Positions 29,799 through 33,667 of a stretch of 64,000 nt of DNA are shown one piece after another. How positions within the stretch are numbered: the stretch's first letter is position 1; the number at the start of each line of letters is the position of its first letter. Under the pieces are notes generated by a model. The model did no database searches. It saw only the letters and a list, made by a program, of their open reading frames with translations, and was not told the DNA's origin. This DNA is from Acidimicrobiales bacterium (GTDB taxonomy: Bacteria > Actinomycetota > Acidimicrobiia > Acidimicrobiales > JAHWLA01), in assembly GCA_035536915.1 (NCBI GenBank), contig DATLNE010000047.1, positions 62,001-126,000 on the forward strand. The letters are read 5' to 3'. Made by a program: the position numbers and the translations under genes.

Positions 29799-29871
29799 GC
29801 CCCCATCGTCTAGTGGCCTAGGACACCACCCTCTCAAGGTGGCGGCACGGGTTCGAATCCCGTTGGGGGTG
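29799..29871 (+). tRNA. tRNA-Glu (CUC)
   Basis: Acceptor GCCCCCA/TGGGGGT with a G-U first pair, anticodon arm CCACC-CTCTCAA-GGTGG with CTC at 34-36, and T loop TTCGAAT. No encoded CCA. Its 3' end (29853-29874) is repeated at 33587-33608, so it is the probable integration site of the adjoining island. Confidence 0.94.
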
Positions 29872-29874
29872 CAG
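29853..29874 (+). repeat. Candidate att site, tRNA-Glu side
   Basis: The 22-nt 3' end of tRNA-Glu plus three downstream bases, matching 33587-33608 at 20 of 22 positions. Many integrases use a tRNA 3' end as attB and leave such direct repeats at both ends of the insertion. Confidence 0.55.
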
Positions 29875-29882
29875 CAGCGAAG

Positions 29883-29908
29883 CCGCAGGCCACAAGGCCT
29901 GCGGTTTT
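29883..29908 (+). terminator. Terminator of the tRNA-Gln/tRNA-Glu unit
   Basis: CCGCAGGCC-ACAA-GGCCTGCGG, 9 bp perfect, followed by TTTT. A degenerate version of the same hairpin follows the att copy at 33616-33639. Confidence 0.85.
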
Positions 29909-29957: not shown

Positions 29958-30866
29958 GTGGGCTTTCGCGCCATCGGTCATCCGAGCTACCCCAGTCGCA
30001 ACTTCTACCCGCCAGCCGAAGCGGTCGCCCTCGCGCCACCGGGCTACATGGAGGCCGACGGCGCCAGTACCTCAGAGATGCTTCCCAGGCGAAAAGCGGT
30101 TGGGTGGTGCCGACTCTGCGGGGAGACACGAACACTCTCGCGAGAGCACATCCCGCCACGAGGCGCGGGAAACAAGGGGGAGCCGACCGGATACACAATC
30201 GACGACTGGCTGAAACGAGAGACGCTCGAACACCTGCCGGGAGGCCGTCGCTCCGGCGGCGGCATCTGGGGCTACACCCTCTGCCGCGACTGCAACAACG
30301 CCACTGGCGGCGATTACGGCAAAGAGTACGGACGTTGGGCCACGCTCGGTGGCGAGGTACTGGCGCAACTCCCGCTGGCGGAGTTCGCCAGCGGCACTGT
30401 CCCGATGGGGGTCGAGGCGGGCTTCCCTGACGTGGACCCGCCTGCACTCGTTCGGCAGGTGCTTTCGATGATGGCCTCGCTCGCGGGCGACTGGCGACTG
30501 ACCGAACGCGAGCCGGTGCTCCGGTCGATCATCCTCGGCCGAAGCGAGGAACCGCTGCCGACCGGGTGGGAACTCGTGATGAACCTCTACGCCGGCCCGC
30601 GGTCGCGGCTTGCCGGGCCGGCTCTCGTGGTCGACGGTGCTGACGGGGGCTGGGCATGGCTACTTGAGGCCGCGTTCCCTCCGCTGGCGTTCCTCCTCAA
30701 GATCGCGGGGCCGCAGCCGATTGGCCCAGGGGTCGACCTTGCGTCGGCCACGGCCGCATCCCCGGGCAAACCCCGAGATGTGCGCTTCACGTGCCAGGTC
30801 GGGTTCGGCTACTCGCCCTATCCGGGCGACTATCGGTCGCGTGGCGAGATCGAAGCGGCTCGTTAG
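29958..30866 (+). CDS. HNH-like zinc-motif protein of unknown role (island gene)
   Basis: 302 residues. Around residues 50-115 it has CRLCGETRTLSREHIPPRG and TLCRDCNNATGG: CxxC, a central His-Ile-Pro-Pro and a second CxxCN, the zinc-finger HNH pattern of HNH_5-like nucleases. The remaining 180 residues are not recognised. GTG start; no clear ribosome binding site. It is the first gene after tRNA-Glu, and its base composition is visibly less GC-rich than the flanks, with more AT-ending codons, consistent with horizontal origin. Nuclease activity is inferred from the motif only. Confidence 0.68.
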   Translation: MGFRAIGHPSYPSRNFYPPAEAVALAPPGYMEADGASTSEMLPRRKAVGWCRLCGETRTLSREHIPPRGAGNKGEPTGYTIDDWLKRETLEHLPGGRRSGGGIWGYTLCRDCNNATGGDYGKEYGRWATLGGEVLAQLPLAEFASGTVPMGVEAGFPDVDPPALVRQVLSMMASLAGDWRLTEREPVLRSIILGRSEEPLPTGWELVMNLYAGPRSRLAGPALVVDGADGGWAWLLEAAFPPLAFLLKIAGPQPIGPGVDLASATAASPGKPRDVRFTCQVGFGYSPYPGDYRSRGEIEAAR

Positions 30867-30901: not shown

Positions 30902-31255
30902 TCAGCCGCGTTGGGCGATCAGGTGGTCGATGAAAGCCGCCACGGCTCGTTCCTCGGTCTCGGTGAGGTTGCTACGGGCGAACCGTGTCACGAGAGGGCC
31001 TGCACTACGGCCCACTCGCGCGACTTCGTAACCCGCGAGTTCCATCAGCCGCGCATATTCGAGACCTAGCGCGTCAGCGAGGCGCCTCAGGATCTTCGGG
31101 GAGGGTTCGTCAACCTGTGCCCGCTCAAGCTTCTGGAGGTACGCCGCCGAGATGGCGGCCGCCGCCGCCACTTCGCGGAGAGAACGCTTGGCCGCGAGCC
31201 GTGCTGAGGAGAGCTCCCGCCCGAGGCTCGCCGTGTCCCGCGGCACGTTCGTCAT
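30902..31255 (-). CDS. XRE-family repressor (island gene)
   Basis: 117 residues. HTH_3 domain at about 8-65 (LSSARLAAKRSLREVAAAAA, SAAYLQKLERAQVDEPSPKI), then a Leu/Ala-rich C-terminus. It is divergent from a run of small genes ending in a papain-like protein, and the 82-nt gap holds a near-consensus promoter overlapped by inverted repeats. It is therefore the likely repressor of that operon. The ATG at 31255 starts MTNVPRDTASL. Confidence 0.82.
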   Translation of the reverse strand: MTNVPRDTASLGRELSSARLAAKRSLREVAAAAAISAAYLQKLERAQVDEPSPKILRRLADALGLEYARLMELAGYEVARVGRSAGPLVTRFARSNLTETEERAVAAFIDHLIAQRG

Positions 31256-31276
31256 GGCAGACACTGTACACCGCAG

Positions 31277-31316
31277 TTGACAAAGAGCCAAGACGGTCGT
31301 ACACTCTGGAGTACAG
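31277..31316 (+). promoter_or_regulatory. Promoter and operator of the island operon
   Basis: TTGACA, 17 nt, TACACT is nearly consensus and the best promoter in the window. GTACACTCTGGAGTAC (31299-31314) overlaps the -10 as an imperfect palindrome, and CTGTAC (31264-31269) and GTACAG (31311-31316) form an inverted pair around the promoter. Strong promoter plus flanking operator fits repression by the divergent XRE gene. Confidence 0.72.
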
Positions 31317-31337
31317 AAACTACCAAAGGAGACAACC

Positions 31338-31481
31338 ATGGCAGGAACGAGGAAGACCGGTTCGGCGGCGGCCAAGGCTGCGTCGAAGGTGCTTCGTGAC
31401 GGGCGCACGAGCAAGGCGTCGAAGACAGCCGCTGCGAGCGCCCTCTCGCAGCGCGCGCCCAAGCGCGGTGGGAAGCGGTGA
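31338..31481 (+). CDS. Small basic Lys/Ala/Ser-rich protein, 47 aa (island gene)
   Basis: The start is fixed by AAAGGAG seven bases before the ATG. It begins MAGTRKTGSAAAKAASKVLR and ends RAPKRGGKR; about a third is Lys/Arg and a third Ala/Ser, with no hydrophobic core. Similar short GSAAAxAASKVL...TSKASKTAAASALSQ proteins occur in other bacteria as uncharacterised small proteins. First gene of the operon behind the XRE-controlled promoter. Nucleic-acid binding is possible from charge, not shown. Confidence 0.68.
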   Translation: MAGTRKTGSAAAKAASKVLRDGRTSKASKTAAASALSQRAPKRGGKR

Positions 31482-31509
31482 CGACGAGACGTACCATCCG
31501 GGTACCTGT

Positions 31510-31650
31510 GTGAAAATCCGTACCCGTGTGACGGTGAGCACGCTGAGGTGCTCTGCGTGCGGTTTCGAAGACCTGCCCGTCGCTTTCGTTTCGCCTTCGT
31601 CACCTACGGGAGTGCGGTGCCCTCGATGCGGAAGGAGTCTCCGCCGGTAG
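31510..31650 (+). CDS. Putative small zinc-ribbon protein, 46 aa (island gene)
   Basis: Reading frame with two CxxC knuckles 24 residues apart, LRCSACGFEDLP and VRCPRCGRSLRR, as in minimal zinc ribbons. The GTG start has no clear ribosome binding site; a second in-frame GTG lies six codons later. It sits between two well-supported small genes on the same strand. Coding status rests on the paired CxxC motifs. Confidence 0.5.
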   Translation: MKIRTRVTVSTLRCSACGFEDLPVAFVSPSSPTGVRCPRCGRSLRR

Positions 31651-31699
31651 CGACTGCCCGATCCGATTCCGCGAGCTGCTTGAACAAAGGAGGTACGTT

Positions 31700-31957
31700 G
31701 TGAAAGTGGCGAAGCGCTCGGCATCGACGGGTAAGGCCGTATCTCCGAAAGTGAGCACGAAGGCCGTGAAGGCCGTCCGTGGGGCGTCCGGGAGCGTGTT
31801 GCCAAAGGCCAGCAGCAAGGCCGGGGGCAAGACGATCCGTTCTGTGGACCAGCTCCTGACGCCGAGACAACGCAAGGTCTTGCACAGCGACCTTTCGGAC
31901 ATGGCCCAGCGCCGCCGACAGGCCGAGGCGTCATCAAGCACCCTGAGACTCAGCTAG
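31700..31957 (+). CDS. Small basic Lys-rich protein, 85 aa (island gene)
   Basis: GTG start with a strong AAAGGAGG seven bases upstream. The first 50 residues are Lys/Ser/Ala/Val-rich low complexity (VKVAKRSASTGKAVSPKVS). The C-terminus is a charged helix (LTPRQRKVLHSDLSDMAQRR). Not recognised. It ends 6 nt before the papain-like gene, so the two are probably translated together. The N-terminal half resembles the 47-residue protein in composition only. Confidence 0.65.
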   Translation: MKVAKRSASTGKAVSPKVSTKAVKAVRGASGSVLPKASSKAGGKTIRSVDQLLTPRQRKVLHSDLSDMAQRRRQAEASSSTLRLS

Positions 31958-31963
31958 GACGAC

Positions 31964-33442
31964 GTGGCCTGGGACGACCCGGACCCCGCCGACGTCGTTC
32001 AACTTGTCGCGCCGGGCGACTGGGACCACCTTCGCAGTAGGTACGAACCAAACCTCGTTGGACGGCCACTCGCACGGTGTTTGGAGGTCGCCCGGTCCGG
32101 AGGCGCCCGTACGGTCGTGATCGAGACCCGGTATCTCGACGTTGATTACCGAAGCGAATACTCGGCGTTCTTCTCGAAGACCTTTTCCGAGATCCCCGAT
32201 ACCACGCACCGGCTGCACTTCTTTCAAGGCGACATCGCCGTCGAAGATCTCGTCTCTCTCTCGGCCGAGGCGACCCGTGGTTACCTCGGGTACATGATCC
32301 TCCGACCGAGCCCTCTGGGCCGCGTTGGACGGACGGTACTTGCCCCTCCTCCGGAGTTGCGCGACGCGGTACACGCAGCGGTCACAGACACGGTCAGTCT
32401 TTTCGGTCAGCCCCTGCAGGTGACGGGTGTGCCATTCGCCCAGCAGGACACGCAGTTCGGCCGCTGCGCTCACGTAGCCGCATGGATCTGCCACTACACC
32501 GGCCATCTTCGAGGCGATGTCATGAGGCGTCCAATGGCCGACTTCAGCCTGCTTGCCGATGCGAGCGTCGCCGAAGGCCGCCCCCTTCCGTCTCAAGGTT
32601 TGACGGGTCTGCAACTGAGCAACCTGATGCGCGACTTCGACCTTCCCCCGATTCACTACAGGATGGGGTACCTGCCCGAGTCCGGCCAAGAGCCGCCCGT
32701 GCCCCCGCACGGGCTCAATGACGACCCCGGGACATGGGACACGAGGGCGGTGGCCGTCTTGTGCCGCTTCCTAAACAGCTCCTACCCCGTCCTCGTGGGC
32801 ACGCACGAGCACGCGTTTGTCATCGTCGGCTACCAGAGGACGGATCGCGCCGGCGAGCAGTGGATCAAGTTCGTTCGCCACGACGACCAACGGGGCCCAT
32901 ATCTCGAAGTCGATGACATCCTCAACGACACAGACACGGCCACCGGCGATGCCTACTCGCCGTGGCAGCTTTTGCTTGCTCCTGTGCCGGACAAGCTGTG
33001 GCTTCTTCCCGAGGCCGCCGAGCGTTTCGGGCGGGAGCTGTTGCTCCGGTACGACGCTCTTGAAGGAACCGGAACGTTCGCACCTCTTCGGCAGGCCCAC
33101 TCACTGACCTTCCGCACGACTGCCATGAACGCGTCGCACTTCAAAGAGCGCGCAATAGCCCGCGGGCTGGACGCCGAGTCGATCCGCGAGCTGCGGCTTG
33201 CGAGGCTCTCCCGCCTGGTCTGGGTCGTCGAGGCCGTTGATCGCCAGGCTCGAGATGCCGGGAAACCGTGTGTCGTCGGCGAAGTCGTTTTCGACTCGAC
33301 GTCGAGCGATGCGTCCCCCAACGTGCTGGCGTTGCGAGTGCCGGGCGCGCTCCTGATACATCAGACGGACGGAACGATTCGGTCCCCCCTGCCAGCTACC
33401 GCTAACGCGGTGACGTCTGCCGCGAAGTTCCAGCCCTACTAG
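31964..33442 (+). CDS. Large uncharacterised protein with papain-like cysteine-peptidase features (island gene)
   Basis: 492 residues. The N-terminal domain has YLDVDYRSEYSAFFSKTF, RLHFFQGD and GYLGYMILRPSPLGRVGRT. A second domain begins QQDTQFGRCAHVAAWICHYT (Gln plus Cys at a helix start, like the papain oxyanion Gln and nucleophile), then VGTHEHAFVIVGYQ (His) and IKFVRHDDQRGPY (Asp/Asn). That order Q-C-H-D is the layout of C39/papain-like peptidases. I have no named family for it. Substrate could be a small partner protein; two lie immediately upstream. Last gene of the island operon, with lower GC than the flanks. Confidence 0.65.
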   Translation: MAWDDPDPADVVQLVAPGDWDHLRSRYEPNLVGRPLARCLEVARSGGARTVVIETRYLDVDYRSEYSAFFSKTFSEIPDTTHRLHFFQGDIAVEDLVSLSAEATRGYLGYMILRPSPLGRVGRTVLAPPPELRDAVHAAVTDTVSLFGQPLQVTGVPFAQQDTQFGRCAHVAAWICHYTGHLRGDVMRRPMADFSLLADASVAEGRPLPSQGLTGLQLSNLMRDFDLPPIHYRMGYLPESGQEPPVPPHGLNDDPGTWDTRAVAVLCRFLNSSYPVLVGTHEHAFVIVGYQRTDRAGEQWIKFVRHDDQRGPYLEVDDILNDTDTATGDAYSPWQLLLAPVPDKLWLLPEAAERFGRELLLRYDALEGTGTFAPLRQAHSLTFRTTAMNASHFKERAIARGLDAESIRELRLARLSRLVWVVEAVDRQARDAGKPCVVGEVVFDSTSSDASPNVLALRVPGALLIHQTDGTIRSPLPATANAVTSAAKFQPY

Positions 33443-33586: not shown

Positions 33587-33608
33587 TCGAATCCTGTTGA
33601 GGGTGCAG
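33587..33608 (+). repeat. Candidate att site, far end of the island
   Basis: Differs from the tRNA-Glu 3' end at two positions (C/T and G/A). It is followed, at nearly the same spacing, by CCCGCA...TGCGGG, a decayed relative of the tRNA terminator. The rest of the tRNA is absent, so this is not a second tRNA gene. Confidence 0.55.
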
Positions 33609-33667
33609 GTACGCGCCCGCACGCCACAGGGCCTGCGGGCGGGTGGTTCCCGGGGCGACCCTGATCG

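Follow-up and report, generated by a model that had tools for sequence, protein, structure and literature searches.

A conserved papain-like peptidase and its small upstream partner in an Acidimicrobiales tRNA-Glu island: a candidate repressed protease effector module

A 64,000-nucleotide stretch of an Acidimicrobiales bacterium genome (GenBank assembly GCA_035536915.1, contig DATLNE010000047.1, positions 62,001 to 126,000; hereafter the window) carries an XRE-type repressor gene and an operon for a 47-amino-acid (aa) Lys/Ala-rich protein, a 46-aa zinc ribbon, an 85-aa basic protein and a 492-aa papain-like cysteine peptidase. The conserved core of this locus is two genes, the peptidase and the small open reading frame (ORF) directly upstream of it, not five. 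The pair is probably a switchable protease weapon. We tentatively read it as a repressed two-gene protease effector module, in which the partner is the cognate regulator of the enzyme, most likely an inhibitor of the toxin-antitoxin (TA) type or a gate acting through its tail. An earlier note on this DNA had proposed three tiny proteins and the peptidase as the unit; all of its genes were recovered at their coordinates (Table 1), and the 85-aa protein alone emerged as the conserved partner.

Relatives were taken as the best 80 of 90 from one scan of GTDB genomes. Of 81 loci, 77 have a same-strand ORF of 44-105 aa directly before the peptidase; the corresponding figure for control genes from the same loci is 122 of 425. 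By a simple helix and charge score the upstream ORF is helical and charged in 76 of 81 loci (controls, 21/425). Furthermore, the tail [LIVMFYWC][ST][LIVF] is found at the stop codon in 33/81 loci and in 1/425 controls, with 19 of the 33 matches outside the Pseudomonas relatives; because the motif was defined after viewing the data and many loci are related, so that counts are not independent, these figures are strong enrichments rather than exact probabilities. Typical partners end in ELLAKTCSL, LSRSYSL, LLTRFTI, LNRIMTV or VPFSL, and position -7 is frequently Leu, position -5 frequently Lys/Arg. The window clade has [SA]xLR[LM][SA]-like tails (LRLS in the window and L015, LRLA in L012 and L019). 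Two actinobacterial loci, L018 and L020, retain the partner nearby on the opposite strand. There, a protein of 256-267 aa directly precedes the peptidase (L018 7173-7976, L020 4631-5401), together with a further ORF of ~74 aa; the L018 copy of the larger protein was searched and had no match in Pfam.

The remaining small genes are accessory. In comparisons of the window with the Acidimicrobiia relatives L015 and L016, the 47-aa, zinc ribbon and 85-aa ORFs have nonsynonymous rates (dN) of 0.10-0.26 and synonymous rates (dS) of at least ~1, often saturated (zinc ribbon against L016: dN 0.10, dS saturated); judged by these rates, all three are real genes under purifying selection. L015, whose peptidase is 75% identical to that of the window, has no zinc ribbon gene. 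The 47-aa protein belongs to the phrog_5079 family, which was seen together with the peptidase in the window, L015 and L016 only. Within the order the family occurs in 5 of 99 genomes, the other four of which have no peptidase match in these searches, and it stands once beside a tyrosine integrase. A core of three tiny proteins plus the peptidase was rejected, because L015 lacks the ribbon and the 47-aa family occurs elsewhere without the peptidase; of the co-occurrence that the earlier note had proposed checking, the part concerning the 85-aa type held and the parts concerning the zinc ribbon and the 47-aa protein did not. The 47-aa protein looks like a mobile-element gene; it had no match in the plasmid search. 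In other genomes of the order, phrog_5079 relatives adjoin a tyrosine integrase or a sigma-factor-like gene (L125 1697-2878; L124).

An AlphaFold2 model of the 492-aa protein, built from 68 sequences, has a predicted local distance difference test (pLDDT) score of 89 and a predicted template modelling (pTM) score of 0.91. Structural comparison of this model indicates a papain fold over residues ~131-344, flanked by family-specific domains at residues 1-130 and 345-480. The closest matches include staphopain C (Z 13.9 over 160 residues, root-mean-square deviation [rmsd] 3.4), the C39 peptidase of PCAT1 (Z 12.8, rmsd 2.1 Å), UfSP2 (Z 12.7), phytochelatin synthase (Z 12.4) and ZUFSP (Z 11.4), and the top Foldseek matches are UfSPs. 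Cys168, His283 and His306-Asp307-Asp308 are invariant in 68 family members and Gln161 is conserved in at least 90% of them; given this invariance, the peptidase has very likely remained catalytic. The proposal, made from the letters alone and with structure prediction as its check, of a papain-like fold with residues ordered Gln-Cys-His-Asp is therefore borne out at the level of the model and the conserved residues. The Cys of the proposed QFGRCAH motif is the invariant Cys168, whereas the conserved Gln is not the one in QFGRC but Gln161 upstream. The window protein has no match in Pfam, NCBIfam or PADLOC, no genuine match by sequence in the PDB, and no match below 0.01 in a BFVD fold search. 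Peptidase_C39_2 weakly matches 28/68 members at E<=0.1 (best 5.6e-7), and the window protein is not among them. Members of the Pseudomonas/Shewanella type reach ~700-760 aa, with an extra C-terminal ~200 aa not found in the window protein (L009, L010, L034, L047, L061, L086-L092). Broken peptidase copies, with a premature stop, an apparent frame change or an interruption resembling an insertion sequence, occur in L016 (8483-8556), L014 (8121-9855), L012 (9456-10946) and L044 (8720-10023), and the partner ORF is often retained where the peptidase is broken.

The operon appears to be repressed, as the earlier note had suggested from a near-consensus promoter and operator repeats. The promoter is the sole sigma-70-type match in 2.9 kb, where shuffled sequences give an expected 0.1, and the GTAC motifs of the putative operator are invariant and in register across the window, L015 and L016. 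A homologous XRE gene adjoins the peptidase in L012, L015 and L016. The window XRE matches PADLOC capH at 3.6e-8, a value to be read with the mutual resemblance of XRE proteins and the 22 HTH_31 matches in this genome in mind.

In the module that we tentatively favour, the CapH-like XRE would silence the operon until stress or infection lifts repression. The partner would bind the peptidase, its free C-terminal tail occupying the papain-type cleft as a product peptide would, and once the partner is removed or displaced the enzyme would be free to cleave proteins of the cell or of phages. This reading draws on the papain-fold matches and invariant catalytic residues, on the near-universal pairing with a partner under purifying selection, on the conserved promoter and operators with their divergent XRE gene, on the immune-type neighbours of relatives and on the sporadic, mobile distribution of the family. 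The window module would operate without a ubiquitin-like (Ubl) system; in several relatives the pair adjoins such a system, with which it may be coupled. Several observations weigh against this model. The window partner ends in LRLS, which is a variant of its clade rather than the general motif itself. When the L070 partner and enzyme were folded as one chain, the helix scored ~82 and the tail mostly below 50 in pLDDT, and thus docking of the tail in the cleft stays a proposal. Apart from an HNH-like ORF, the neighbours of the window locus are housekeeping genes. The window island has no CapP (ImmA/IrrE) gene, which is present in L012 and L019. Finally, conservation of the tail up to its carboxylate is as compatible with a substrate as with an inhibitor.

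The main alternative, which we consider unlikely, is that the enzyme is a Ubl-pathway peptidase of Bub/6e/Bil-type operons. With its papain fold it would deconjugate or mature the modifier, functionally as UfSP/ZUFSP do, and the small protein would be its adaptor or substrate. The UfSP-like structural matches (UfSP2 and ZUFSP, Z 11-12.7, and the top Foldseek matches) agree with this, as do the neighbourhoods. A multiubiquitin-type E1/ThiF gene lies within 3 kb of 14-15 of the 81 loci and a divergent ThiF (E 0.001 for the one tested) near four more, so that ~19/81 are E1-linked. On the tree the E1 label requires at least eight changes, fewer than any of 500 shuffles. Multiubiquitin occurs on two of the four plasmids that encode the peptidase, compared with 162 of 72,556 plasmids overall, and in Nocardioides YR527 a full Ubl-E2-JAB-E1 set is divergent from XRE-ImmA/IrrE-partner-peptidase. 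However, about three quarters of the members have no E1 nearby; these, the window's included, would have to act on another modifier or be orphans. The window has no E1, Ubl, E2 or JAB genes, and its genome has no Bub-type E1 and only a partial ThiF/MoeB-like match. Ubl operons also often bring their own JAB. The catalytic order of UfSP (C78) is Cys-Asp-His, whereas the window family has the papain-type order Cys168-His283-Asp307. Since 160 of the 162 multiubiquitin plasmids lack the peptidase, the enzyme is an optional companion of such operons, and its candidacy as a standard component of them was rejected.

The partner may instead be a substrate: by processing or transpeptidation of its tail the peptidase would generate a signal or link it to other molecules, in the manner of a Pup-like tag or of sortase-like chemistry. 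We regard this as quite unlikely. It would account for conservation of the tail up to the carboxylate, for the match to phytochelatin synthase, which is a papain-fold transpeptidase, and for a helical partner that, like Pup, may be disordered; yet the loci share no ligase, export gene or acceptor, the tail end is hydrophobic rather than Gly or Glu, and ATP-free conjugation of such a kind is not known. An ordinary TA addiction module, which would stabilise mobile elements and have no anti-phage role, is improbable as well: a small gene first and a toxin-like enzyme second, a repressor, and location on plasmids and in an island would all fit, but restriction, CapH/CapP-type and Ubl systems lie nearby repeatedly, and a separate XRE takes the place of antitoxin autoregulation. 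It is very improbable that the pair forms an ATP-independent peptide-tagging or signal system, with an acyl-enzyme formed on the partner tail and transfer to targets, as a non-beta-grasp counterpart coupled to bacterial Ubl conjugation in some lineages.

The window peptidase shares with staphopain and C39 peptidases (Peptidase_C39_2) the core fold and the Gln-Cys-His-Asp order, but its family has extra conserved domains on both sides of the core, and it is encoded in an intracellular operon with a small helical partner. Traits of C39 leader peptidases were not seen: the window protein has no ABC domain, the recurrent neighbour families include no ABC exporter, and the partners have no GG leader. 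UfSP2 and ZUFSP share the fold and, in a subset of loci, linkage to Ubl-conjugation genes, whereas most members of the present family have no Ubl genes nearby. In the staphopain-staphostatin and SpeB-Spi pairs, a papain-fold peptidase gene likewise stands beside a gene for a small, potentially inhibitory protein; the present partner differs in being upstream, about 50-90 aa long and helical with a conserved free C-terminal tail, and no sequence relation was seen. The Bub/6e/Bil operons with CapH+CapP are neighbours of part of the family and use the same type of regulator (PMC13373217, PMC1779556), but the peptidase-partner pair is rarely inside such operons and usually stands alone.

The papain fold, and protease/small-inhibitor pairs as a kind, are already known. 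The texts consulted on Bub/6e/Bil operons (PMC13373217, PMC1779556) contained no such peptidase, and in a literature search that was scant on subscription papers and preprints we found no description of this pair, its tail, its breadth or its Ubl link; nor did any named system with this gene set turn up there, in agreement with the earlier note. The result is a protease family across Bacteria and Archaea with a nearly universal, unnamed tiny partner and recurring links to Ubl and CapH/CapP-controlled immune loci. If the partner tail controls the enzyme, the pair would be a compact, transferable protease switch. A Ubl link would bring a cysteine peptidase into prokaryotic ubiquitin-like pathways, for which Iyer et al. 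(2006) reported no evidence of a functional link to papain-like peptidases (PMC1779556).

The peptidase has a sporadic and mobile distribution. Bacterial relatives come from Actinomycetota, Pseudomonadota, Planctomycetota, Cyanobacteriota, Bacteroidota, Chloroflexota, Acidobacteriota and several candidate phyla, and archaeal ones from methanogen-related groups and Thermoplasmatota, with the nearest relatives of the window peptidase in Acidimicrobiia. It is infrequent, being encoded by 4/396 genomes of the phylum and 7/198 of the order. It also occurs on four plasmids and two viral contigs, and searches of phage records with two different family members gave no match. Other recurrent neighbours are CapH/CapP-type XRE-ImmA/IrrE genes, type I restriction genes, caspases, DUF6527 and BilD; for the relatives, the restriction, CapH/CapP-type, Ubl and caspase neighbours support the resemblance to a defence setting that had been remarked on for the window. 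CapP cleaves CapH once it has bound single-stranded DNA, and CapW or CapH+CapP is carried by 219 of 544 Bub operons (PMC13373217).

Table 1. Features of the window island and its target site (positions in the window).
Feature	Position	Strand	Evidence
tRNA-Glu (CTC), island target site	29799..29872	+	ARAGORN
Left att-like direct repeat: tRNA-Glu 3' end and following hairpin	29853..29904	+	Repeat search, 52 nt, 81% identical to right copy
302-aa ORF, weak HNH endonuclease match; island cargo, outside core module	29958..30866	+	Pfam HNH_5 E 5.9e-4, below curated cut-off
117-aa XRE/HTH_31 repressor, CapH-like	30902..31255	-	Pfam HTH_31 9.3e-10, above cut-off; PADLOC capH 3.6e-8
Putative operator region: GTAC 31266-31269; GTACACTCTGGAGTAC 31299-31314	31266..31314	.	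Aligned with L015, L016
Promoter TTGACA-17 nt-TACACT	31277..31305	+	Hexamers invariant in alignment with L015, L016
47-aa Lys/Ala-rich protein, phrog_5079 family, accessory	31338..31481	+	PHROGs 1.4e-14; dN 0.17 vs dS 1-4
46-aa zinc ribbon, two CxxC pairs, accessory	31510..31650	+	Pfam Zn_ribbon_8 8.6e-5, below cut-off
85-aa cognate partner: basic N-terminus, charged helix, tail ...EASSSTLRLS-COOH	31700..31957	+	Conserved small upstream ORF
492-aa papain-like cysteine peptidase (Gln161, Cys168, His283, Asp307)	31964..33442	+	AlphaFold2 model, structure matches, family alignment
Right att-like direct repeat	33587..33638	+	Repeat search

The island location noted earlier was confirmed. In the window, gltX, a YdcF-like gene, tRNA-Gln and tRNA-Glu are followed by a 3.7-kb insert at the tRNA-Glu 3' end and then by an unrelated gene. 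The edges of the insert are the 52-nt direct repeat of Table 1, the two copies of which have diverged. No integrase is found among its genes, and thus the island is either a relic or moved in trans. The order YdcF-like/tRNA-Gln/tRNA-Glu is kept in several relatives of the same order (Acidimicrobiales), one of which (G420) has the peptidase, on another contig. The 302-aa ORF within the island shows a CxxC...H...CxxCN pattern and is perhaps an independent nuclease cargo gene.
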